DNA of 64,000 nt, taken from positions 310,001 to 374,000 of the forward strand of contig NZ_CP118605.1 in NCBI RefSeq assembly GCF_029869925.1. Direction: 5' to 3'. Within the stretch, counting starts at the first letter, position 1, and every line of letters starts with the position of its first letter. The notes under the pieces are model-generated. The model did no database searches. It was given only the letters and a program-made list of their open reading frames with translations, and was not told where the DNA came from. The position numbers were made by a program, and so were the translations under genes. Shown here piece after piece: positions 3,101 to 13,240 of the stretch. Origin of the DNA: Microbulbifer bruguierae. GTDB lineage: Bacteria > Pseudomonadota > Gammaproteobacteria > Pseudomonadales > Cellvibrionaceae.

Positions 3101-3784
3101 ATGGAATACGGTCAATTCTGCCCCATAGCCAAAGCGATGGATCTGCTTGGCGAACGCTGGACAATGCTGATTCTGCGCGAACTGCATATGGGTGGCACGC
3201 GATTCAGCGAATTACAGCGCGGCCTGCCTTTAATATCTCCGACCATCCTCACCAAACGCCTCAAAGAGCTCTCTGACGCCGAACTCGTCCTGCGGAAGAA
3301 GATTCCCGGCCAGCGTGGCAATGAATATTTCCTCACCCAGGCCGGCAAGGAGACATTGCCGATGTTGCGGCTGGTGGGTGAATGGGGCATGCGCTGGGCG
3401 CGCGGTGATATCCGCGACAGCGAGCTCGATGTAGAGCTACTGATGCTCTACCTGCAGCGCAGTATCAAAACGGACATGTTGCCGGGGGATCAATCCGTCA
3501 TCCAGTTTCGCTTCACCGATCTACAGAAACTTCACAGCTGGTGGCTGATCGTCAAAGGCCCCAATGTGGATATATGCCTAGAAGATCCTGGACAGGATGT
3601 CGACGTTTACCTGACCACAGACCTGCGCACCATGGTGAATTGCTGGATGGGGGATGAAAGTTATCGGGAAGCGGTAGCGGATAGCCGTATGAAACTCGTA
3701 GGGCCTTCGGCGCTTACACGGAATATTCAGAGTTGGATTTCGGATAGTGTTTTTTCGGGGATTCCTTCTGCTCGACAGATATAA
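3101..3784 (+). CDS. HxlR-family transcriptional regulator with C-terminal SCP2-like domain
   Basis: A 227-residue protein. Residues 1-100 are an HxlR winged helix: CPIAKAMDLLGERWTMLILR followed by RFSELQRGLPLISPTILTKRL. The conserved Cys near residue 7 could sense redox or electrophile signals. Residues about 120-220 resemble an SCP2 sterol-carrier-like domain that might bind a hydrophobic ligand. GGAG lies 8 bases before the ATG. It probably autoregulates and controls the divergent tautomerase. The gene ends about 110 bp before the attC-like edge of the cassette array. Confidence 0.85.
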   Translation: MEYGQFCPIAKAMDLLGERWTMLILRELHMGGTRFSELQRGLPLISPTILTKRLKELSDAELVLRKKIPGQRGNEYFLTQAGKETLPMLRLVGEWGMRWARGDIRDSELDVELLMLYLQRSIKTDMLPGDQSVIQFRFTDLQKLHSWWLIVKGPNVDICLEDPGQDVDVYLTTDLRTMVNCWMGDESYREAVADSRMKLVGPSALTRNIQSWISDSVFSGIPSARQI

Positions 3785-3895
3785 ACGAAATGTGCCGCCA
3801 GTAAAGCTTGCTGGTTAAACCCGGTAGTCGGTGATCTACTTTTGTAGCCGTTAAAACGGGTGAGAATCATGACCTACAGCAGTGCCTTGTTAGTT
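3785..3895 (-). repeat. possible degenerate terminal attC
   Basis: CCTTGTTAGTT, ending at 3895, looks like the end of an attC (compare CCTTGTTAGTG at 8947-8956), and the stop codon of the 3895-4659 ORF starts in it. A convincing partner core and palindrome are not visible to the left; short self-complementary pieces exist around 3796-3812. I treat it as the worn-out distal edge of the array. Confidence 0.35.
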
Positions 3896-4659
3896 TAAAA
3901 ACATAGCAGGTCAAGGTGATGAAGCTTCCCTTTTGCACCTTCACCGTAACCAATGCAGGAAAAATCAAATTTCTCTACTAGTCTGACGCCGTCTTTAGTG
4001 ACTGGTCGTGTAAATACATTTTTTGTACCTTTTTGTTTAAGCATTTCAATCTGATTTAACATTTTATGTAGTACGGCACCTTTGGACTTAAACCCTTTCG
4101 CGGCTATCGCACCGACATATACAGATTTTGGGTTTATCTCTTTGCTTATATGAGCGGCTGTAAGTGACTGCCCAGTAATTTGTTCTTCTTTTAGAAGTTT
4201 AACAGCTTCCGCCTTTAGAGGAATAATGCAGAAGTATCCTCTGATGGGGTCTCGTTTCCCTTCACCTTTTCTCCTAAGCACCCAAAAAATATTAGGGTTT
4301 ACTTTATACCAAGCCTTCATTTGATTAATTGACGATACACCGCCTTCAAATAAATCTTCACCCATATTAAAGATAAGTTTTAATTCCATGCTTGATGCGG
4401 GTCTAGCCATATAAACCGGATCTAGAAATTCTGGAAGACTGTCTCGCAAGCGGCCAAACGAATACAAGAGGGACCATATGGCCCATCTTACAAAGATCAG
4501 CGCAATTCCAGTTGCAAATAATATGACACCTAAATAGCCGCATGCCCGATCGATAGGGAAGCCTAGTATTGACACTTCCATCTCCTTGATCGCTTGTAGC
4601 GAAGACGCACCAAGTAAACAGCCCGATACAGCCAATAGTCCTAAAGCAAAAGCGGTCAT
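3895..4659 (-). CDS. membrane protein of unknown function, last cassette
   Basis: A 254-residue protein with two hydrophobic segments (about residues 4-25 and 38-62) and a hydrophilic C-terminal domain of about 190 residues. The C-terminal part (IRGYFCIIPLKAEAVKLL, then YVGAIAAKGFKSKGAVLHKM) loosely recalls a GNAT acetyltransferase fold, but I cannot see a clear acetyl-CoA loop. The low GC content differs from the flanking genes, as in the other cassettes. It is separated from the rest of the array by the IS at 4706-6488. Confidence 0.6.
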   Translation of the reverse strand: MTAFALGLLAVSGCLLGASSLQAIKEMEVSILGFPIDRACGYLGVILFATGIALIFVRWAIWSLLYSFGRLRDSLPEFLDPVYMARPASSMELKLIFNMGEDLFEGGVSSINQMKAWYKVNPNIFWVLRRKGEGKRDPIRGYFCIIPLKAEAVKLLKEEQITGQSLTAAHISKEINPKSVYVGAIAAKGFKSKGAVLHKMLNQIEMLKQKGTKNVFTRPVTKDGVRLVEKFDFSCIGYGEGAKGKLHHLDLLCF

Positions 4660-4705
4660 AATATTCCTTGATTCGACCTTTCTGTGGGTAACTCAGACCA
4701 TTAAC

Positions 4706-6488
4706 GAGACTGTAGAAAAACATTTCCAAGAAAAATAGTTTCTACAGCACTCCTTCTTTAATATTGATCCGACAAATATCGACCAGGACCATTTGAAATA
4801 TTCAACTATTGTGCGTACAGACCACGATCCCTCTGTGATAAGTCGATATTCTCTCAGTTACCTTCCTATCGATCCGTAATTGGCAATTTTTTCGATGTTA
4901 TGCACCATACAGTACAATTGCCATTGGCCTTGCACCTTATTTTTTCCTCGCAAGGAGAACCGATTCAGTCCTTTTTGCGTACCGATATTGGCAAACACCG
5001 GCTCAACCACTGACATGCGATGGCCATAAACCTGTTTGCCATACCGACTGTCCACCCGCCGTTGCATCCAGCGCATGGGTGAATGATGGGTATTTACCGT
5101 AAACGACACTTGCCGTCCATGGCCTTCCCGCGTATCAGGTGATTCGGGGTTGCGCATGCACTCATGCTTGCGCGGACAGTGACGGCAATCGGTCAGATTG
5201 CCTTCGAAGTAGAGCTTCTGCTTACCGTATTCATCGATGGTCTCATGGTATAACCACAGCAACTTACCTTCCGGGCACCAGCACAGCTTATTTTCACTAT
5301 CCAGCTTAAACTCTGCTGCGGGTATGGTGGGTTTGACGCCCTTTACTGTGTCGCGGTGACGCTTGCCGTGCTTGGCTTTCTGGCCCGTGAACTTAGGGTC
5401 CCGCGAGCGGAACCGGTTGTCCGGTACATAGGCGTTATAGCCTTCTTCTTTCAGCCAGGCGTAATTGGCTTCGTTGGCAAAACCGGTGTCTGCAGTGATA
5501 ACTACGTCCTCGCCAACGAGGTCTACGTCAATGCCGCTTCTTTTATAGTGATTCTGAACACCTTCAATAATAGGCTTCAGAGCATGGTGCTCCTGACCTT
5601 CGCCAAAGGCCTGGGCGTCCACAATAACCTGGTGTTTTTTGTCGACCGCTGCCACACCGTTATACCCCTGAATGGTGCCTTTGCTGGTGGTCATTTTGGC
5701 CGACTCGTTGTCGGTGATATTACTCTTTACTTCTTTTGGCCGCTTTCTCTGCCCCATCCTTGGGGCGGCGGTCTTTAGGAACTGGTCGATCTTGTGGAAG
5801 TGCTTGCCTAGTGTGTTGATGGCTTGCTCCACCTGATCTTTGCGTTCTCTATCCCTGGGTTTTCGCCGGTCAAGCTTCTGATGTTCTCGCATACACTGCT
5901 TGATCTGGCGATATATTTTGTCGCGTTTTTGTGCCAACTCTTCCAGTGTGCCTGAGTGTTCCTTCGAGGCATTGGAGGCGATCTTGCAGCCATCAATGGC
6001 AATCAGTTCATGGCCGATCAGGCCTTCTTGGTCGCACACCAACAGCACCTGCTCAAACACATTGGCGATGGCATCGGGGTAACTGCTGATAAAACTGGCA
6101 ATGGACGTAAAGTGGGGAACGGTATCGCAGGACAGGGCCTTAAACAGGATGTTGTGCTCACATTCCCACTGAATATCGCGGCTGGAGCGCACACCATGGT
6201 AGTAGGCGAAGAGAATAATCTTCAGCAGAATTGCCGGGTCGTAGGCGGTACGACCACCAGCGTCATTATTGTATTTATCGTAGAAAGCTGACAGATCGAT
6301 GTGGTTTTCAATCAGCTGGTGCAAGGTAAACTCGAAGGTACCCGGGCGGATTTGTTGCTCAAAATCCACAACCACCATGGCATTTTGGGCGTAGCTGTAC
6401 CTTTTAAAGTTCGGCATGACAACAATCCTTTGTGCGATGCCAGATTTTATCGAAAAACGTCGGGAATCGGGAGTTTTTCTACAGTTTC
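4706..6488 (-). mobile_element. IS1182-like insertion sequence inside an attC core
   Basis: A 1783-bp element with 16-bp terminal inverted repeats, GAGACTGTAGAAAAAC at 4706-4721 and its complement GTTTTTCTACAGTTTC at 6473-6488 (15 of 16 match). It is flanked by AAC at 4703-4705 and AAC at 6489-6491, compatible with a 3-bp target duplication. Removing the IS and one AAC restores an ordinary attC second core, GGCGTTAATGG on the minus strand. The single transposase appears intact. The 136 bp between the left repeat and the transposase stop hold no gene. Confidence 0.85.
4858..6417 (-). CDS. IS1182-family transposase
   Basis: A 519-residue DDE transposase, full length for the family. The N-terminal DUF772-type region has AYDPAILLKIILFAYYHGVRSSR (residues about 57-80) and LIAIDGCKIASNASKEHSG. 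A first acidic residue lies in VVITADTGFANEANYAWLKE, and the C-terminal DDE domain has CPRKHECMRNP followed by YGHRMSVVEPVFANIGTQKG. The cysteine-containing segment near residues 370-430 is typical of IS1182. No frameshift is seen, so it may still be active. The ATG at 6417 leaves a 56-bp leader to the right inverted repeat. Confidence 0.9.
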   Translation of the reverse strand: MPNFKRYSYAQNAMVVVDFEQQIRPGTFEFTLHQLIENHIDLSAFYDKYNNDAGGRTAYDPAILLKIILFAYYHGVRSSRDIQWECEHNILFKALSCDTVPHFTSIASFISSYPDAIANVFEQVLLVCDQEGLIGHELIAIDGCKIASNASKEHSGTLEELAQKRDKIYRQIKQCMREHQKLDRRKPRDRERKDQVEQAINTLGKHFHKIDQFLKTAAPRMGQRKRPKEVKSNITDNESAKMTTSKGTIQGYNGVAAVDKKHQVIVDAQAFGEGQEHHALKPIIEGVQNHYKRSGIDVDLVGEDVVITADTGFANEANYAWLKEEGYNAYVPDNRFRSRDPKFTGQKAKHGKRHRDTVKGVKPTIPAAEFKLDSENKLCWCPEGKLLWLYHETIDEYGKQKLYFEGNLTDCRHCPRKHECMRNPESPDTREGHGRQVSFTVNTHHSPMRWMQRRVDSRYGKQVYGHRMSVVEPVFANIGTQKGLNRFSLRGKNKVQGQWQLYCMVHNIEKIANYGSIGR

Positions 6489-6544
6489 AACGCCGCCAGC
6501 AGAGGCGCAGCTCTGCTGCGTCCTGCTGGCTGGCCTTGTTGGCA
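6489..6544 (-). repeat. attC J (split by the IS)
   Basis: The R'' end is TGCCAAC on the minus strand (6544-6538), next to the TAA of the 6546-6971 ORF. The arms GCCAGCAG and CTGCTGGC pair across a short attC of about 62 bp. Its second core was GTTAATG; the IS now splits it, with AATGG left at 4697-4701. It is the shortest and simplest attC in the array. Confidence 0.8.
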
Positions 6545-6545
6545 C

Positions 6546-6971
6546 TTATTTGTACTGAGCCAACAGCTGATTTACAACAGGTGTCATTTTGCTCTCTACA
6601 CTTGCCCATTTGTTTAGGGCAAAGCCTCCACCGCCATTCAGGTGATATTCAGCATAGCCAATTCGCTCACGACCTTTGAACAACCTAAGCTCGGCGTGAC
6701 TCAGATAGGGAGAAAAATCCCAGGATCTAAGCGCCGTATATGTAAGTTTAAAATTACAGTGTTCTGGCTTTCGGCCGGAGTACACTTCTGTCGTAATATG
6801 ATGATCATGGAAAACATCCTCTACAGTGCTCACAAAATCTGCAACGATGACTTTTGGGTTGTTTTCAAAGCAAACATGATCAATTTGATGCGAAGAGTCT
6901 ACTTGTTTCACATCTATTGCGGTACAGCCAGCGAAAAAAGTTACTGCCGTTAATAGAGCTATTTTTTTCAT
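6546..6971 (-). CDS. Sbal_3080-type lipoprotein, cassette-encoded
   Basis: A 141-residue protein with signal peptide and lipobox FAGC (Cys at about residue 15), so probably an outer- or inner-membrane lipoprotein. The body, with NPKVIVADFVSTVEDVF, TYTALRSWDFSPYLSHAEL and a GGGGFALNKWAS segment, resembles from memory the small Sbal_3080 lipoprotein family found in Shewanella and other gammaproteobacteria; function unknown. GGAG precedes the ATG. The stop codon lies one base beyond the R'' core of attC J. Confidence 0.7.
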   Translation of the reverse strand: MKKIALLTAVTFFAGCTAIDVKQVDSSHQIDHVCFENNPKVIVADFVSTVEDVFHDHHITTEVYSGRKPEHCNFKLTYTALRSWDFSPYLSHAELRLFKGRERIGYAEYHLNGGGGFALNKWASVESKMTPVVNQLLAQYK

Positions 6972-6993
6972 TTTATCTCCGGTTTGTTTTGAG

Positions 6994-7065
6994 TGCTAAC
7001 GCCCGCATTTGCGGCTGATTTGGAGCGCAGCGGAAAAGCAGTCCGACAACATGCGCTTGTTAAAT
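6994..7065 (-). repeat. attC A
   Basis: A 72-bp site. On the minus strand R'' is ATTTAAC (7065-7059) and R' is GTTAGCA (7000-6994); arms such as AGCGCAT and TGCGGGC frame the imperfect palindrome. The R'' matches the start of its own cassette, GTTAAAT at 8267-8261. The TAA stop of the SEC-C ORF is inside R''. Confidence 0.85.
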
Positions 7066-8262
7066 GTGGGTCACTGACGATATTGACCCAGAGACATCTT
7101 TTGAGACTTCGCCATCTATCTCAAATGGCTTAGTATAATTTTCGGTCATAGCCAAATTATATATTGTCTCTTTTGCTTTTTTATCGAGCAAATCCCACCA
7201 ATCAAGATCAAAATACACGTTTTCTGCGTACGCAAATATAGATTTAAAAAGCCAGTCCTTAATAAACTTTGTATCACGCGAGAAGACATCCAACAGGTAG
7301 CCACCAATAACACTGTGCTCCTCCAAGTAAGATATAATATACGCCGCATTACCGTTAATCGTTACCGTTGATAATGAAAAATGCTGAAACTTGTATGAAG
7401 GATCACCCAAATTCTGAAATTTAGTGCCATCGACTTTGTAATAAGGAGAAATTGACGCGCATACAGCTACAGAGATAGGGGCATCCAGTTCAATAACATA
7501 GGATTTTAAAAAATCAAAATTACTTTTTTTATATAGATCCTCGTACTTTTCTTTTATTGAGTCTATATCGCCAAACCCTTTATATATATCTCTTTTTAAA
7601 AACCACAATTCTTCTTGTAAAATTATCTGGTCGCTTAACCTATAGCCCATATCAATGTTGTTGATTTGCCATTCTACAGCTTCCTTTGCAGCATTCTTTT
7701 GGTAAAGCTCATGGCACACGGCACGATATGAACTTGCCCAACAGTTTTCATAAGATATAGAAAACTCGATATTTTCAATATTCTTGAAAAGCTCGGTGTC
7801 ATGATAGCTGCAAAACCCATAAAATATTGATGCCTGCTTTTTTACTCCCGACTTTATATCTCTTACATTTTCAAAACCGTTAGTATTTCTATAGAACGTT
7901 CCTACATGACCATCTTTACAAAAGCTAGATAGTACCCTCCCTCTCTGAACTGTATGCGCTCCCTTGATGGGAAGGTCACAATTCTTTCTATCGAAAGATG
8001 CACAGCAGAATTTTTTTGAATCAAATATTCTAGACAGGTTTTTCCTCAGCTCACCCTCGCTAACCTTTCTCTTACTTTCTCTATCAAGATGGCAGTCTTT
8101 GAAGGACTTTCCGCTTTTGCACCAACATGGCTCATCGGGTTTAGTTTGTGCTGCGGTCAGGATTGCATGAGCAAATCTCATTTTTGACTCATCATTAAAT
8201 CCTTTAATCATTTCGCTTATCTGTTTAGAAATATCATCCATGCGCTCAATATCTCCGAACAT
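7060..8262 (-). CDS. SEC-C motif protein of unknown function, cassette-encoded
   Basis: A 400-residue protein, the largest cassette product here. Near residues 44-57 is CWCKSGKSFKDCH, the zinc-binding SEC-C motif found at the C-terminus of SecA and in many unrelated proteins. The remaining 340 residues, with further cysteines (KFCCASFDRKNC, FYGFCSYH), match nothing I know. Its ATG overlaps the attC B core (GTTAAATG), leaving no space for a ribosome-binding site within the cassette; translation would use sequence in the preceding attC, or start further in. The base composition is distinctly AT-rich. Confidence 0.7.
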   Translation of the reverse strand: MFGDIERMDDISKQISEMIKGFNDESKMRFAHAILTAAQTKPDEPCWCKSGKSFKDCHLDRESKRKVSEGELRKNLSRIFDSKKFCCASFDRKNCDLPIKGAHTVQRGRVLSSFCKDGHVGTFYRNTNGFENVRDIKSGVKKQASIFYGFCSYHDTELFKNIENIEFSISYENCWASSYRAVCHELYQKNAAKEAVEWQINNIDMGYRLSDQIILQEELWFLKRDIYKGFGDIDSIKEKYEDLYKKSNFDFLKSYVIELDAPISVAVCASISPYYKVDGTKFQNLGDPSYKFQHFSLSTVTINGNAAYIISYLEEHSVIGGYLLDVFSRDTKFIKDWLFKSIFAYAENVYFDLDWWDLLDKKAKETIYNLAMTENYTKPFEIDGEVSKDVSGSISSVTHI

Positions 8263-8380
8263 TTAACGCCCAGCGCAGGCGCAGCCAGCGCGGAGCACCT
8301 TTTGTGTTAATGTTTGAGCGCCAGCGAGTAACACAAAAGGTGCGTAGTGTTGGCTGTCACCCTGCCGCTGCTTGTTATGA
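8261..8380 (-). repeat. attC B
   Basis: A 120-bp site with R'' TCATAAC (8380-8374) and R' GTTAAAT (8267-8261). Long complementary arms (AGCCAACACTACGCACC against the matching left arm, and CTTTTGTGTTA twice in opposite orientation) give an extended cruciform. It is nearly identical to attC F at 10075-10194 although the two cassettes are unrelated. The R'' matches the start of the cassette that owns it. Confidence 0.9.
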
Positions 8381-8803
8381 GCTTTTATCAAAGAGCATGG
8401 ATTCTTTAAAAAAAGCACCGGCAAAAGTATGCTTTTTTAGGAGGTAATTCATTGTTAAATTGTGTTTAAGGTTTCTATCTTTATATGCATCCCAATCCCA
8501 GCCGACGCATATATAGGAAAGAACATTGCTGAATTCATGGCTATGACCATCCTCCATGAACATTTTTTGAATGCCAATTCTTGCATCTTGAATTTTCTTT
8601 TTAATCAATTCAACCTGACTTGGATCTTCCTTTTTCAAGTTTCTGAGCACTATTTCTTTTGCAAACCTTGTACATATCACATCAATGTCGCGCTCAGTAG
8701 GTTGTCCGTGCTTATCCAGTGACCATTTTGCCGTTTCAACTCTCTGCTTGATCATTGCATCAAACTGCAATCCATCCCATTTTCTCAATAATTTTCTAAT
8801 CAT
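8375..8803 (-). CDS. unknown protein, cassette-encoded
   Basis: A 142-residue soluble protein, lysine-rich, with no signal peptide or membrane segment and no motif I recognise. It starts MIRKLLRKWDGLQFDAMIKQ and is predicted mostly helical in the first 90 residues (my reading of the sequence). The TAA stop lies inside the R'' core of attC B. Base composition is AT-rich relative to the host genes. Confidence 0.55.
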   Translation of the reverse strand: MIRKLLRKWDGLQFDAMIKQRVETAKWSLDKHGQPTERDIDVICTRFAKEIVLRNLKKEDPSQVELIKKKIQDARIGIQKMFMEDGHSHEFSNVLSYICVGWDWDAYKDRNLKHNLTMNYLLKKHTFAGAFFKESMLFDKSS

Positions 8804-8812
8804 CTGGATTAC

Positions 8813-8956
8813 TCATAACGCCGCCAGCAGGGGCAGCTTAACTTGTGCGCGATTTGCGCGAAAATGGGAGCGCAGCGACCCGCGCAAAACGTGCATAAGG
8901 TAAGCTGTCCCGCGGAGGGCCGAAGGCCCGTAGCAAACTGCCTGGCCTTGTTAGTG
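8813..8956 (-). repeat. attC C
   Basis: A 144-bp site with R'' CACTAAC (8956-8950) and R' GTTATGA (8819-8813). Inside is a strong palindrome (GGGCAGCTTA ... TAAGCTGTCCC) with an inner GTGCGCG/CGCGCAAAACGTGC arm pair, plus GGGCCGAAGGCCC. It is closely similar to attC D. Confidence 0.9.
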
Positions 8957-8968
8957 CAGATGCGCCCG

Positions 8969-9238
8969 CTATTCATCTGGATACTCTGAAAGATACAGCT
9001 TTATTCCCAGCTTAGACATTATTGACATAGCTCGAACGCTTAAAATTGCACCGCCGCCGCACGCGTTTTCTCTCATGCTAAAACCAATGTCAGCGATATA
9101 ACTTGCCGAGGGTAATTTTTCTTCATTTTCAATGAGCCACTTTTCTAAGCTCTCAACTTGCGCGGGAAGCTCCCACTCATCTCTAGCTATCCAGGCAATT
9201 CTTTCATTATCTGATTCACGTCTTACGTAAATTGACAA
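8969..9238 (-). CDS. small unknown protein, cassette-encoded
   Basis: An 89-residue acidic soluble protein (MSIYVRRESDNERIAWIARD...). It has a glycine-rich ENACGGGAILSVRAM segment and no known domain that I can recognise. It ends TAG 13 bp before the R'' core of attC C. Its upstream core site at 9255-9261 is mutated, so it may be locked to the cassette at 9393. Confidence 0.55.
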   Translation of the reverse strand: MSIYVRRESDNERIAWIARDEWELPAQVESLEKWLIENEEKLPSASYIADIGFSMRENACGGGAILSVRAMSIMSKLGIKLYLSEYPDE

Positions 9239-9254
9239 TCTAGATTTCCTTATG

Positions 9255-9398
9255 CACTATCGCCGCCGGCAGGGGCAGCTTACCTTGTGCACGTTTTGCG
9301 CGAAAATGGGAGCGTAGCGACCAGCGCAAAATGTGCACAAGGTAAGCTGTCCCGCGGAGGGCCGCAGGCCCGGAGCAAATTGCCCGGCCTTGTTATGT
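9255..9398 (-). repeat. attC D with mutated second core
   Basis: A 144-bp site highly similar to attC C. R'' is ACATAAC (9398-9392) and matches its own cassette start. The R' reads GATAGTG (9261-9255) instead of GTTAGTG, the sequence expected from the R'' of the next cassette. The second base of the GTT triplet, next to the exchange point, is thus changed. Confidence 0.85.
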
Positions 9399-9686
9399 GC
9401 CACTACTCGCACCTGACCTCCTTTTGAGTTTCCGCCGAGCAGAAAATGCGAATATTGTTAAAAACACTAACGCAGCAGAAGTTTGAATTGCTCCTTTAAC
9501 AATAACCCCAGTCGAACACTCACCGGATGGATCTGTTGGTGTGCCTACACGATAGAATGGAAACAAACCAAACTCTTTTTTGTGGCCGCAGAGACCATCC
9601 CATTCTTCATATGCAAACCCGAATAGAACAGATAACGCAAAAAGAACGAAAAATATTACAGAAACTGGTGTGACTCTATTCTTCAT
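9393..9686 (-). CDS. small membrane protein, cassette-encoded
   Basis: A 97-residue protein with two membrane segments (about residues 7-25 and 62-82), two cysteines in the loop between them (CGHKKEF, GECSTG) and a basic C-terminal tail (ARRKLKRRSG). By the positive-inside rule the loop is periplasmic and could form a disulfide. No family is recognised. The stop codon lies in the R'' core of attC D. Confidence 0.6.
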   Translation of the reverse strand: MKNRVTPVSVIFFVLFALSVLFGFAYEEWDGLCGHKKEFGLFPFYRVGTPTDPSGECSTGVIVKGAIQTSAALVFLTIFAFSARRKLKRRSGASSGT

Positions 9687-9700
9687 TTTCTATGCCGGAC

Positions 9701-9794
9701 ACATAACGTTGCTAGCAGGGGCGGCCGACGCGCAGCGTTGGACGTCCAGCCCAGCCCCGAAGGGGATGGGCGAGCCTGCCTAGCCTGGTTATGG
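9701..9794 (-). repeat. attC E
   Basis: A 94-bp site with R'' CCATAAC (9794-9788) and R' GTTATGT (9707-9701). The palindrome GCTAGCAGGG / CCTGCCTAGC carries an inner CAGCCCCGAAGGGG hairpin. It is nearly identical to attC H at 11088-11181; both follow the same type of ORF-less cassette. Confidence 0.9.
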
Positions 9795-10074
9795 CTGACG
9801 CGCTCCGGACCAACTACTAGCACTTTGCCAGCCACGGCTTGGCTGGCCACCGCCCGAAAATTACGAGGAAAGAATACCGTACTTTCCCCAATCTATTTTT
9901 ATCTTAGAGCCACGCCAAAATACTGCAGCGGAATTGCCCAATTCTACCGAACCCGAGCGAACACTCTAGGAACGAAACTGCTTGAATGTGCCGTGGCAAA
10001 AACGCCAAATGTTGGACGCCAAAACTGTGAGCCAAACTTGCCACGGCACAAATATTAATTTTTACCGACCGGCA
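9795..10074 (-). other. ORF-less cassette, copy 1
   Basis: About 280 bp with no credible minus-strand ORF. It is clearly homologous, over its whole length, to the cassette at 11182-11463. Conserved inverted repeats: GCCAGCC (9827-9833) with GGCTGGC (9841-9847), and GGAAAG (9867-9872) with CTTTCC (9882-9887). Copy 1 alone has a perfect 12-bp inverted repeat, GTGCCGTGGCAA (9988-9999) with TTGCCACGGCAC (10038-10049). Conserved hairpins without coding potential suggest a structured RNA or a regulatory/promoter cassette; neither is shown. Confidence 0.75.
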
Positions 10075-10194
10075 CCATAACGCCCAGCGCAGGCGCAGCC
10101 AGCGCGGAGCGCTTTTTGTGTTAATGTTTGAGCGCCAGCGAGTAACACAAAAAGCACGTAGCGTTGGCTGTCGCTCTGCCGCTGCTTGTTATGA
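10075..10194 (-). repeat. attC F
   Basis: A 120-bp site with R'' TCATAAC (10194-10188) and R' GTTATGG (10081-10075). It is almost identical to attC B; differences in one arm (for example CACCTTTTG versus CGCTTTTTG) are matched by compensating changes in the opposite arm, so the fold is kept. Confidence 0.9.
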
Positions 10195-10202
10195 GTTCCC
10201 CA

Positions 10203-10547
10203 CTATAGCGAACTACGAAAGCTCGCCCACTTGTTTACGAGATCAGCGAACCTGCCGGCAGCCGCTGTGGATTGACCTGTTTTAGAAACAGCGGAAGCCT
10301 CCGCTTCAATTAGAAAATCTACGATTGAAGTAGCTTCTTCTAGAGTACATGTAACTACGCAAAACTCGCTAATTGAACTTCCTTTATGCTTTGCCGGCTT
10401 TTCCACTGTTCCCTGGCTTATTGCTGTAGCAACAATTGAAGCTTCAGAAGATCTCTTTTGCTGCAGTAGCGATAAGGTATCTTCAAGATCAGAAACCCTG
10501 AATGTACTCACCTTACTACAAATATTTTTATACTCTTCGGAGGTCAT
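10203..10547 (-). CDS. unknown soluble protein, cassette-encoded
   Basis: A 114-residue protein, rich in Ser/Ala/Thr and probably largely helical (SDLEDTLSLLQQKRSSEASI; TLEEATSIVDFLIEAEASAV). No signal peptide, membrane segment or known motif. It ends 9 bp before the R'' core of attC F. No function proposed. Confidence 0.55.
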   Translation of the reverse strand: MTSEEYKNICSKVSTFRVSDLEDTLSLLQQKRSSEASIVATAISQGTVEKPAKHKGSSISEFCVVTCTLEEATSIVDFLIEAEASAVSKTGQSTAAAGRFADLVNKWASFRSSL

Positions 10548-10553
10548 CTCGAC

Positions 10554-10670
10554 TCATAACGCCGCAATCAGACGCGGCTTACTTTTTGTGCTTTTTGCAC
10601 GAAAATGGGAGCGCAGCGACCGTGCAAAAAGTGCACAAAGTAAGACGTCGGCTGCATTGCATTGTTATGG
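10554..10670 (-). repeat. attC G
   Basis: A 117-bp site with R'' CCATAAC (10670-10664) and R' GTTATGA (10560-10554). The inner arm with GCACGAAAATGGGAGCGCAG matches the central part of attC C and D, so the three belong to one attC family, while the outer arms differ. Confidence 0.88.
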
Positions 10671-11069
10671 CGCTGATAGCTCCGCGTCTATGGAAAACTG
10701 AGTAAACAGCTTCTCTTTGGCCTCGGAAATCTTTCCTTCCTTCTTCCAGCGCTCAATATCTTTTGATCTAAATGAAGGCTCTGCGATTTGTATTTGCCGA
10801 ATCGACTCTTTCAGCAGCTCTTGCCCGTGCGCATCAGCCATGGATAGGCGATCCAGCAACTCTGGAACGAGGTTATCTTTATGTTTCTCTAGATAAAGGC
10901 GTTTGGCCAACTGAACAGTTCCGTTAGTATTTTCCATTCTCTGGTAATTGAACCAATTATTCGCTCTCACATACTCGTTGAGCTTTCTCTTTTCATTGGT
11001 TTGATAAACCGCAAATCCGAAACTTGCCACGCCTATTGCTAGGCTCACATAAGAAATGACTTCTTCCAT
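10665..11069 (-). CDS. membrane-anchored unknown protein, cassette-encoded
   Basis: A 134-residue protein with one N-terminal membrane segment (MEEVISYVSLAIGVASFGFAVY) and a soluble helical remainder. I start it at the ATG at 11069, because the longer open frame up to 11237 runs through attC H and into the neighbouring ORF-less cassette. The TAA is inside the R'' core of attC G. The layout, a single anchor plus charged helices, is common among accessory-gene proteins of unknown role. Confidence 0.6.
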   Translation of the reverse strand: MEEVISYVSLAIGVASFGFAVYQTNEKRKLNEYVRANNWFNYQRMENTNGTVQLAKRLYLEKHKDNLVPELLDRLSMADAHGQELLKESIRQIQIAEPSFRSKDIERWKKEGKISEAKEKLFTQFSIDAELSAP

Positions 11070-11087
11070 GCTCTCTCTACTCGATTG

Positions 11088-11181
11088 CCATAACGTTGCT
11101 AGCAGGGGCGGCCGACGCGTAGCGTTGGACGTCCAGCCCAGCCCCGAAGGGGATGGGCGAGCCTGCCTAGCCTGGTTATGG
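11088..11181 (-). repeat. attC H
   Basis: A 94-bp site with R'' CCATAAC (11181-11175) and R' GTTATGG (11094-11088). Apart from a few bases it equals attC E. It belongs to ORF-less cassette copy 2. Confidence 0.9.
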
Positions 11182-11463
11182 CTGACGCGCTCCGGATTAC
11201 CTACTAGCACTTTGCCAGCCACGGCTTGGCTGGCCACTGCCCGAATATTACGAGGAAAGAATACCGCACTTTCCCCACCAAATTATTATCTTACTGGCAC
11301 TCCACGATAATGCTGCGGACTACCCTATTCTGCCGAACCCGAGCAAACACTCTAGGAACGAACAAGCTTGAATAGCAACCGGCCAAAGCGGCTCAACATT
11401 GGATGCTATTTAGTGGCACTGAATTTTCAGCAACCACGAAAAACCCAAAAATACTGACCGGCA
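11182..11463 (-). other. ORF-less cassette, copy 2
   Basis: About 282 bp with no convincing ORF, homologous to 9795-10074. The first 110 bp are nearly the same and the rest drifts, with blocks such as GAACCCGAGC and ACACTCTAGGAACGAA kept. It keeps GCCAGCC/GGCTGGC (11214-11220 and 11228-11234) and GGAAAG/CTTTCC (11254-11259 and 11269-11274). It lacks the 12-bp inverted repeat of copy 1. A plus-strand frame crosses the attC into it but stops early compared with copy 1. Confidence 0.75.
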
Positions 11464-11547
11464 CCATAACGCCAAGCTTTGGGGCAGCCGGAGCAACGCG
11501 TAGGCTGTCCCAGCCGCGATAGCGGCGACAACAGCGCCTTGTTAAGC
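11464..11547 (-). repeat. attC I
   Basis: An 84-bp site with R'' GCTTAAC (11547-11541) and R' GTTATGG (11470-11464). Its R'' is the exact reverse complement of the core GTTAAGC at 11902-11896 that starts its cassette. Inner arms GGGGCAGCC and GGCTGTCCC pair. Confidence 0.85.
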
Positions 11548-11889
11548 ATTTTGCACCACTCTTTGCCAGAGAGACTCAAACTCTTCTTTGGTAGATGGCT
11601 CCAGCTCTCCAACTTCAAATCTCTTGTTACTGTCTGTCCAGAGCCCAAAATTGCGGTTATTTGGAGCGGCAAATAAAGGGGCGTTGTTCTTATCCATTCC
11701 TATTTCTCGTATTGGAATTCCGCTTTCGTCTATTTCGATGAGCCACTTGGCCACAGACGGATATAGCTTTTCCTGATCGGGGTTAGTTCGTGGAACAAAG
11801 AACAGAATGGCTTTGATTAAACGAACGCCGATACCATTCATTTCCTTTTCATTCCAGTTGGTTGCCAGTTTAGTAAATCCGTAGTTCAT
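11542..11889 (-). CDS. unknown protein, first cassette of the array
   Basis: A 115-residue soluble protein (MNYGFTKLATNWNEKEMNGI...) with no recognised domain. The segment VAKWLIEIDESGIPIREIGMDKNN may form a beta-hairpin core. It is the attI-proximal cassette by array polarity, so it would be the most recently gained and the best expressed if an integron promoter lies upstream. The stop codon lies inside the R'' core of attC I. Confidence 0.55.
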   Translation of the reverse strand: MNYGFTKLATNWNEKEMNGIGVRLIKAILFFVPRTNPDQEKLYPSVAKWLIEIDESGIPIREIGMDKNNAPLFAAPNNRNFGLWTDSNKRFEVGELEPSTKEEFESLWQRVVQNA

Positions 11890-11895
11890 TTTGAT

Positions 11896-12221
11896 GCTTA
11901 ACAGTTATATAGTGGGTATCGTGATCGTATTTCTGGTGATCACTATCTTTCCGTCGAATACTTATCCAAATTGCTTGAATCCCATATCAGTCAGGCTATT
12001 TGCGTCTCATTGTGTATGTTTTCCAAGCGGCAAAGTGGTCGCCATGCCCCCTATCCGGCCTGTTTTAGCGAGGATATAAGTATTTGTTTTTTGGGGAAAA
12101 ATATTCTGTGCCCAGATTCCACGCTAGATAGTGGGTGTGGTGATCATTTTTCTGTTGTATTTATAACTTTATTTGATATTTGCTGCCAGTCTGTAAATTG
12201 GCTTAAACCGCTTGTTGGTAA
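11896..12221. other. array-edge core site and non-coding leader with a direct repeat
   Basis: GTTAAGC (minus strand, 11902-11896) is the core that starts the first cassette, so the region to its right is where attI and an intI gene would be expected. No integrase frame is present; short plus-strand frames here have no family resemblance. An imperfect direct repeat of about 30 bp (25 of 30 match) starts at 11908 and again at 12128 (ATAGTGGGT.T.GTGATC). The region may be a decayed attI/leader or another relic. Confidence 0.5.
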
Positions 12222-12319: not shown

Positions 12320-13240
12320 TTACAGCCCCAAATTCGGCAGCACAAAAGATTTGGTATTCGGGTGCAGCCTGATCCACAGTCCAGGATTCGCATTCAATTG
12401 CTGCAACGCTTCATCTTTGTCTGAACTCAGTCGCGTATTAAGCACATTCGCATAAGTCTGCACCTTCGCCGGTGCTGTATCGACATCCACAACAGATTGC
12501 ACAACCTTCTTCGCTTGCAGAATCGCCGCCGGACCCAAGGTAAGAATGTACTCGGCAGACCGACATTCTGCTTCATCCTGTTCATTCACCGCGCTGCCGC
12601 CAGCTTTGAACTTGCTGATATGGTGCTCGAGGATACTGCTGGAAATCGGGATTACACCGGCTACATGGTCGCTTTGGGCGCCGGAGAAGGGTTTGATGTA
12701 GGCGAGGTGGGAGGCCTGGTTTTCTTCCGGGCCGTGGCCGATGAAGAAGATATCCAGGCCGCCCAGGGATTCCAGTTTGTTCAGATACGCGATCAGTCCG
12801 GCTTCCAGATCGTCGGTATCTGTCTGCATCGGGGTGAAGCTTTTGATCTTTTTGAAAAAGTCCGGGCCCAGGATGCGCTCGAAGTCCCGCACGAAGCTGA
12901 AGCAGTTGCCCATGCTCATGGGGGCGAGGGCGTCCTGAGTGAATACGTTGAGGCGGCCGAGCAGTTCGTCCTGTTCTGAGGTTTTGGCCAGTTCACCCAG
13001 CAGGCGGTGCAGGGCCTGGGCGCCGCGGCCGCCGAGGAGCGCGATATTGATATCGCCGTCTTTCTGGGCGGCGGTTTCAAGCAGTTCATTCAGCATCGCC
13101 TGGCCGACGGCTGCTTCGGTGTCGAGTACGGTTGGGGTGATGCCGTGATCGCTCAGCTCGGCGTCTTGCGCTGTATTCTGGGCCAGCCACACGTTGCCGC
13201 TGTCTTCGACTCTTGTGAATGATGGGTTGTCATTGTTCAT
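12320..13240 (-). CDS. NagB/6-phosphogluconolactonase-like sugar-phosphate isomerase/deaminase
   Basis: A 306-residue protein with the NagB/RpiA fold. INIALLGGRGAQALHRLLGE forms the phosphate-binding first strand-loop; GLDIFFIGHGPEENQASHLAYI corresponds to the family D-x-x-x-x-G-x-G-x-x-x-H active-site stretch; EYILTLGPAAILQAKKV matches the RITLT...A.I..A segment. The motifs are degenerate compared with glucosamine-6-phosphate deaminase (the family FPG block is not seen), so the substrate is uncertain. It has its own terminator and stands beside the aro gene without coupling. Confidence 0.65.
   Translation of the reverse strand: MNNDNPSFTRVEDSGNVWLAQNTAQDAELSDHGITPTVLDTEAAVGQAMLNELLETAAQKDGDINIALLGGRGAQALHRLLGELAKTSEQDELLGRLNVFTQDALAPMSMGNCFSFVRDFERILGPDFFKKIKSFTPMQTDTDDLEAGLIAYLNKLESLGGLDIFFIGHGPEENQASHLAYIKPFSGAQSDHVAGVIPISSSILEHHISKFKAGGSAVNEQDEAECRSAEYILTLGPAAILQAKKVVQSVVDVDTAPAKVQTYANVLNTRLSSDKDEALQQLNANPGLWIRLHPNTKSFVLPNLGL

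Follow-up and report, generated by a model that had tools for sequence, protein, structure and literature searches.

How does a row of integron cassettes come to lie in a chromosome with no integrase gene beside it, and could such a row still exchange its cassettes? This question is raised by the window analyzed here, a stretch of 64,000 bases (C1:310001-374000) from the 4.48-Mb genome of Microbulbifer bruguierae, which carries an array of about 11 cassettes on the minus strand. Ten cassettes, each ended by an attC, run from 11902 to about 6491 and are followed by an IS1182-family insertion sequence (IS) and then by an eleventh cassette that reaches to 3889. Here, intI denotes the integrase gene. 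We propose that this array is probably a satellite integron, with an orphan attI of its own, that is served by integrases encoded elsewhere on the chromosome. An initial annotation of the window had called the array stranded or served in trans. Service in trans fits better with what was observed, namely, attC structures related to those of two arrays with intact intI genes, homology to attI that runs up to the crossover at the head of the array, varied cassettes at orthologous loci, and cassettes common to separate attI loci of relatives; stranding fits these observations less well.

That the array consists of integron cassettes and lacks an integrase, as first annotated, is well supported. 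It has at least two consecutive attC sites and no nearby intI, and it thus fits, by definition, a cluster of attC sites lacking integron-integrases (CALIN). None of the genome's three TIGR02249 matches is inside the window, and a tblastn search of the 3 kb ahead of the array with both of the genome's IntI proteins gave no match. The annotation had relied on an own-start rule, by which the first heptamer of a cassette is the reverse complement of the R'' in the attC at its own far end; the match is exact for all eight starts that it listed (11902, 11470, 11094, 10560, 10081, 9707, 8819, and 8267). These eight were said to stand in a row, but an unlisted start at 9261 falls between 9707 and 8819, so the listed cassettes are not strictly consecutive. 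The start at 9261 (GATAGTG against GTTAGTG, which differ by one base, within the GTT of R') and a second unlisted start at 7000 (GTTAGCA against GTTGGCA) each match at 6/7 positions. Exact pairs therefore number 8/10, against a mean of 1.6 when the R'' heptamers (n = 10) are permuted, and eight or more were reached by 2 of 200,000 permutations. The rule is also valid in both intI-linked arrays of the genome.

A covariance model supplied the check that the annotation had proposed. Trained on 27 attC sites from the genome's two other arrays and on none from the window, it recovered 8 of the 10 window sites, with scores of 22.4 to 38.9 bits (E 3e-3 to 2e-7); at E <= 5, the remainder of the 64 kb gave no match. 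In the training alignment, 96.3% of cells were paired, changes on both sides were seen in 55 cells versus 17.9 in shuffles, and covariation was strong in the L boxes. A full-length alignment failed to keep the L boxes in register, so the model was given two arms instead, at the cost of sites of about 144 bases. The two window attCs that were missed are about 145 bases long, and since the model also misses 144-base sites of its own training set, we ascribe both misses to this length limit; all 10 window attCs are recognizable by their anatomy. The same repeats throughout the genome would have spoken against an array. Most of the 13 whole-genome model matches, which are no census since 150 of 2,841 candidates were scored, lie in arrays, but two lie outside: C1:1214725 (25.1 bits; E 0.046), where an attC finder with a false-positive level of 1 site in a 165-kb control placed no attC within the surrounding 12 kb, and C1:3408517 (20.7 bits, partial; E 0.59). 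Chance or unrelated repeats were rejected as the source of the array on the basis of the exact-pair permutation and the covariance model matches.

The answer to how such an array might persist begins with the sequence ahead of its first cassette. Between 11902 and the neighboring gene lie 418 noncoding bases, of which the array-proximal part (11903..12170, minus strand) appears to be an orphan attI module with its crossover, AACT|GTT, between 11903 and 11902. Its upper limit of about 270 bases is taken from a genus-wide orphan boundary described below and not from the window alone. By blastn, this leader and attI-B, the attI beside one of the genome's integrase genes, have 139/225 identities (E 3e-8 in a 1.4-kb search), and a hidden Markov model of eight attI-B sites beside intI aligns over its full length with the leader at 12135-11898 (E 4.1e-6 in 1.16 Mb). 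The attI-B match stops at the crossover. A model built from 25 intI-adjacent attIs alone finds the window at E 2e-4. The leader is, on this homology, a putative attI resembling attI-B that the initial annotation overlooked. An attI at the head of the array, as in a complete integron, is hence present by sequence homology. Neither a LexA box nor an intI lies ahead of it (the tblastn search of the 3 kb before the array gave none); in the intI-linked integrons examined, the crossover is 348 to 372 bases from the intI match.

The enzymes that might act on this site are encoded at a distance. Two intI genes, intI-A (C1:4434783-4435715) and intI-B (C1:1270848-1271783), score above the curated TIGR02249 cutoff, and the third match falls far below it. 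Both reading frames are open and full length, and the products are 62% identical and have the expected domains. Upstream of each gene is a LexA-type box, CTGTN8ACAG; with such a box at both genes, expression is probably SOS controlled. The annotation had asked for a search for an intI elsewhere in the genome with the same attC families near it. Each intact intI heads an array (A1 and A2, the latter behind attI-B), and the attCs of these arrays are relatives of the window attCs (97% over 95 bases; up to 95.8% over 119 bases). The nearest intI is several hundred kb from the window array, which therefore has no intI beside its attI as a complete integron would. The genome also has a fourth array (L171 5054-8556; G000:C1:4273053-4276555), which is intI-less, with five attCs by the finder and no intI match. 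No attI was seen by eye ahead of it, where the sequence resembles IS remains. Across the genus, integron integrases are very common: at E <= 1e-60, 43/48 genomes carry one or more, for a total of 74 intI, some of which have an internal stop codon.

Relatives preserve the position of the window attI. The flanking gene before it (12320..13240, minus strand; 306 amino acids [aa], with sub-threshold similarity to glucosamine-6-phosphate deaminases) keeps its place at orthologous loci. It was found in 11 of the 48 Microbulbifer genomes, and an attI-like leader follows it in six, i.e., this genome, G005, G015, G021, G031, and G032; attCs are present by model or finder at 4/6 of these loci. When positions were compared by eye, no member of the set of 74 intI shared a contig with, and lay within 20 kb of, the flanking gene (11 genomes) or the DAHP synthase gene on its far side (48 genomes). 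A hidden intI at the locus was sought and rejected, as the TIGR02249 search, tblastn, and the comparison of positions each returned none. Cassettes differ among the six loci, with matches between G031 and G032 and between G015 and G021 excepted: across 15 locus pairs, blastn matches consist of attC stretches of 51 to 140 bases and short 30-base pieces, bar one exception of 1.57 kb.

Two alternative origins can be weighed at this point. First, an IntI could have put a cassette into an ordinary attG-like site, with attC x attC recombination enlarging the array afterward. The genome's own integrases would be capable of this, and attG insertion in Escherichia coli is mentioned in PMC12444791. However, the leader is attI-like over about 240 bases, where an array founded at an attG would begin in ordinary sequence, and an attI-like leader stands at the equivalent place in five relatives; we judge this origin to be highly improbable. 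Second, a piece of an intI-linked array may have been relocated here together with its attI. The attC families are indeed related across all three arrays, but A1 and A2 each retain their own attI, and in five other species the attI-like leader is beside the same flanking gene, making such a rearrangement just as poor a prospect.

Orphan attI sites extend well beyond this locus. An attI model termed R2, made from 8 sites beside IntI-B and 5 orphan leaders, was used to scan the 48 Microbulbifer genomes at E <= 0.01 and returned 145 attI-like sites in 40 of them, 24 intI adjacent and 121 orphan. The intI is divergent at the 24 adjacent sites, and 21 of these are 196 to 220 bases from the intI match; the other three are at 307, 388, and 667 bases, and there the intI match lacks the N terminus. 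Orphan sites are spread over 38 genomes, with at least two in 24 of these. Only one orphan match has an intI within 20 kb, a doubtful one in this genome (G000:C1:1260086; 19.7 bits) that has no crossover and is counted among the 121. Two others (G038:C90:189 and G023:C16:131604) are so close to a contig end on the intI side that they count as orphans only provisionally. A match lies beside just 24/74 intI, so R2 detects some attI types only; the filters applied in the scan were also stricter.

Do these orphan sites head arrays? Of the 121 loci, 104 were analyzed; 30 of these had no strict crossover (many have ACAAAT|GTT, and some look decayed) and 2 had less than 400 bases downstream, leaving 72. 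The exact reverse complement of the first heptamer occurs 60 to 3,000 bases downstream at 49/72, versus a mean of 9.0 and a maximum of 15 in 200 trials in which heptamers were swapped between loci (pairs with equal heptamers excluded). At the 72 loci, the attC finder located 138 attCs in 338 kb of same-strand downstream sequence, as against a single one in 131 kb upstream and another single one on the opposite strand. At least one finder attC is present at 37/72 loci, 52/72 passed either the own-start test or the finder, and 20/72 passed neither, and an attC-like end is visible by eye at several loci without a finder match. As far as a simple attI model can tell, these counts suggest a dedicated attI at the head of many of the arrays that lack intI in this genus.

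The extent of the orphan module was examined by comparing 25 attIs from 32 intI loci with 93 orphans without intI traces, all aligned at the crossover. The proportion of orphan pairs with 7-mers in common is 2 to 3% beyond -310, 6% at -280, 12% at -250, and 26% at -160. Orphans thus have sequence in common only from about -280 to the crossover, unlike the intI-adjacent sites, which are conserved throughout. A module with one boundary fits better with the spread or the selective maintenance of attI, two processes that it does not distinguish, than with random decay of complete integrons. The model from the 25 intI-adjacent attIs recovers 85/101 orphans at E <= 0.01. A LexA-type box with at most one mismatch lies between -345 and -240 at 22/25 intI-adjacent sites versus 5/93 orphans (1/25 and 2/93, respectively, in a control stretch). 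As regards Pc, the promoter that drives the first cassettes of a complete integron, a promoter-like pattern resembling TTGAC-N15-19-CATTCT has 39 matches in the 93 orphan modules, all within about 120 bases of the crossover.

Cassettes common to separate loci provide a further line of evidence. Within genomes, 19 matches between loci reached at least 93% over at least 180 bases, some of them IS-like or duplicated blocks, and the ends were checked for six. In G015, a 605-base cassette (97.2%) begins at the crossover of both the IntI-linked attI and an orphan attI. In G016, a 453-base cassette (99.1%) is the first behind the IntI-linked attI and recurs within an orphan array, there with a shortened attC. 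Two orphan arrays of G029 have 535 bases (99.6%) in common, and in M. bruguierae, 334 bases (100%) occur in A1 and first behind attI-B in A2. The remaining two are a 96% match between the two intI arrays of G031 and a block in G034 whose ends miss the cassette borders.

Several observations weigh against service in trans at the window locus. If this genome's own attI-B is left out of the hidden Markov model, the core of the window leader is matched at no better than E 0.013, and the 85 bits that R2 assigns to the window leader are not independent, as R2 was built in part from this leader, along with four other orphan leaders. The window module has no match to the promoter-like pattern, and the window cassettes have no near-identical partner in A1, A2, or the fourth array. 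Among the orthologous loci, that of G021 has no model attC, just an 81 to 82% blastn match to window attCs, and the crossover TTT; that of G005 has a different attI type (with some 60% identity to that of G016 and G018) and no attC by model or finder. The 1.57 kb that the G031 and G032 loci have in common lies some 3 to 4.5 kb from the attI, and a weak tblastx match (31%) connects the G015 and G021 loci. Hand-summed counts give 60 orphans in 26 genomes without an R2 site on the intI side versus 61 in 22 genomes with one, so the pairing of orphans and integrases by attI type is not strict. G038, G040, and G042 have no intact intI yet 19 orphan sites, which must therefore be stranded today. Finally, tblastn with this genome's two IntI as the only queries, and with mostly 600 to 900 bases of upstream sequence available per locus, detected intI-like sequence ahead of 8/104 orphans.

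The last two points favor a degraded integron, in which a complete integron lost its intI, either ahead of the divergence of the six species or on repeated occasions, so that attI and array would now be a stranded relic that changes only by deletion, IS insertion, or homologous recombination. A truncated intI in G042 belongs with them, and together these traces and the genomes without an intact intI indicate that intI loss does occur. Decay at the far end of the window array is also evident, from its IS, from the mutated R' at 9261, and from the ambiguous eleventh cassette. Nonetheless, a relic of this kind does not readily account for the differing cassettes that six species carry at this locus, for an attI module that is still recognizable up to a boundary near -280 while intI and the LexA box are gone, or for cassettes 97 to 99% identical to those of intI-linked arrays in G015 and G016. 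We regard the degraded-integron explanation as unlikely, albeit a more serious contender than either off-target insertion or rearrangement. An original loss of intI and present-day service in trans are compatible.

If the array is a satellite integron served in trans, it would begin at an orphan docking module, the attI of up to about 270 bases, with no intI beside it. Cassettes would enter at the crossover between 11903 and 11902 and would leave or be shuffled at the attC sites, through integrases made elsewhere. The enzyme may be IntI-B, whose own attI is the more similar, and/or IntI-A, either of which would have to recombine the window attI. SOS induction might be the trigger, and the first cassettes may be expressed from the attI side. 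For Microbulbifer as a whole, we lean cautiously toward a distributed integron, in which usually one to three IntI, mostly with LexA-type boxes, serve a chromosome-wide network of discrete ~270-base attI modules in trans. Many of these modules would carry a promoter-like sequence of their own, they would spread or be kept independently of intI, and CALINs would be working capture sites instead of debris. A cell's integron would then be a multi-site system able to insert cassettes at a number of positions, and most capture sites would be overlooked by intI-based counts.

How does this compare with known systems? Off-target insertion, intI loss, and rearrangement have all been proposed as origins of CALINs (PMC8618304). 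In the literature cited here, CALINs are defined by attC alone; in contrast, the window array starts at a recognizable attI. Positions of CALINs conserved across species are reported for Xanthomonas (PMC12444791). According to PMC9024848, IntegronFinder 2.0 detects no attI outside class 1, and attIs are rarely sought because they are poorly described outside that class. The nearest precedent comes from the Shewanella prophage M16-3, where, according to PMC9892861, a CALIN with its own attI, i.e., an intI-less array that starts at an attI, is found beside a complete integron having the same attI. That array is a single case in a cryptic prophage, whereas the window attI is chromosomal and diverged and is one of 121 orphans. 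In sedentary chromosomal integrons, too, related attCs follow an attI on the chromosome; here, however, no intI is beside the attI, and a single genome holds two intI and at least three arrays. In the delta-attI-type cassettes of mobile integrons (PMC12901181), attI sequences away from intI are recombined by IntI1. There, individual cassettes within arrays have recombination sites made of attI pieces, whereas here a long attI-like module heads an entire array. We found no paper in the openly licensed PMC literature that treats Microbulbifer, integron, and attC together, and the openly licensed literature gave no report of a genus-wide set of orphan attI modules.

The individual cassettes, all on the minus strand, are as follows, from the attI outward. 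Cassette 1 (11471..11902; attC 11464-11547) has an open reading frame (ORF) at 11542-11889 of 115 aa with no family found. Cassette 2 (11095..11470; attC 11088-11181) and cassette 5 (9708..10081; attC 9701-9794) belong to a noncoding family, in its second and first subtypes, respectively. The ORF of cassette 3 (10561..11094; attC 10554-10670) ends at 10665, and the 190-aa frame listed for it starts upstream of the cassette; cassette 4 (10082..10560; attC 10075-10194) has an ORF at 10203-10547 of 114 aa. Cassette 6 (9262..9707; attC 9255-9398, with the mutated R' GATAGTG) and cassette 7 (8820..9261; attC 8813-8956), absent from the initial annotation's list, carry the two attCs missed by the covariance model. 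Next come cassette 8 (8268..8819; attC 8261-8380), with an ORF at 8375-8803 of 142 aa; cassette 9 (7001..8267; attC 6994-7065), whose ORF at 7060-8262 (400 aa) has a SEC-C motif; and cassette 10 (6492..7000; attC 6485-6544), with an Sbal_3080-family lipoprotein at 6546-6971 and an R' interrupted by the IS. Cassette 11 (3889..4705) has an ORF at 3895-4659 of 254 aa, and its start, GTTAATG, is a poor match to GTTAGTT, the reverse complement of its end heptamer.

The IS1182-family element (4706..6488, minus strand) interrupts the tenth attC exactly at its R' box, an example of IS insertion into an integron recombination site. Its ends are GARACTGTAGAAAAAC, with AAC on both sides, and its transposase (4858-6417) scores 287.6 bits for NF033551, above the family cutoff of 270.

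The noncoding cassette family, with window members at 9708-10081 and 11095-11470, is about 280 bases long, with near-invariant blocks and without a conserved ORF. Nineteen copies were aligned (from this genome, G003, G005, G029, G031, G034, G035, and G044), and the two subtypes differ in the first ~95 bases. Covariation is weak; with only 5 of the 44 predicted pairs changed on both sides, no RNA is claimed, and the family is a candidate noncoding RNA or promoter cassette.

Outside the genus, 11/96 genomes of the family have R2 matches and 85/96 have none; attI-like sites of this type in other genera were found in G069, G100, G101, G110, G130, G141, and G142, with up to five in one genome (G130). 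On the flanks of the window array, an HxlR-type regulator gene (3101..3784, plus strand) lies beyond the eleventh cassette. At the other end, the product of the gene before the attI has 72 to 83% identity with proteins from Bacteroidota (Flavobacterium among them) and from gammaproteobacteria, and given this identity and the presence of the gene in only 11/48 genomes, it was likely acquired by horizontal transfer.

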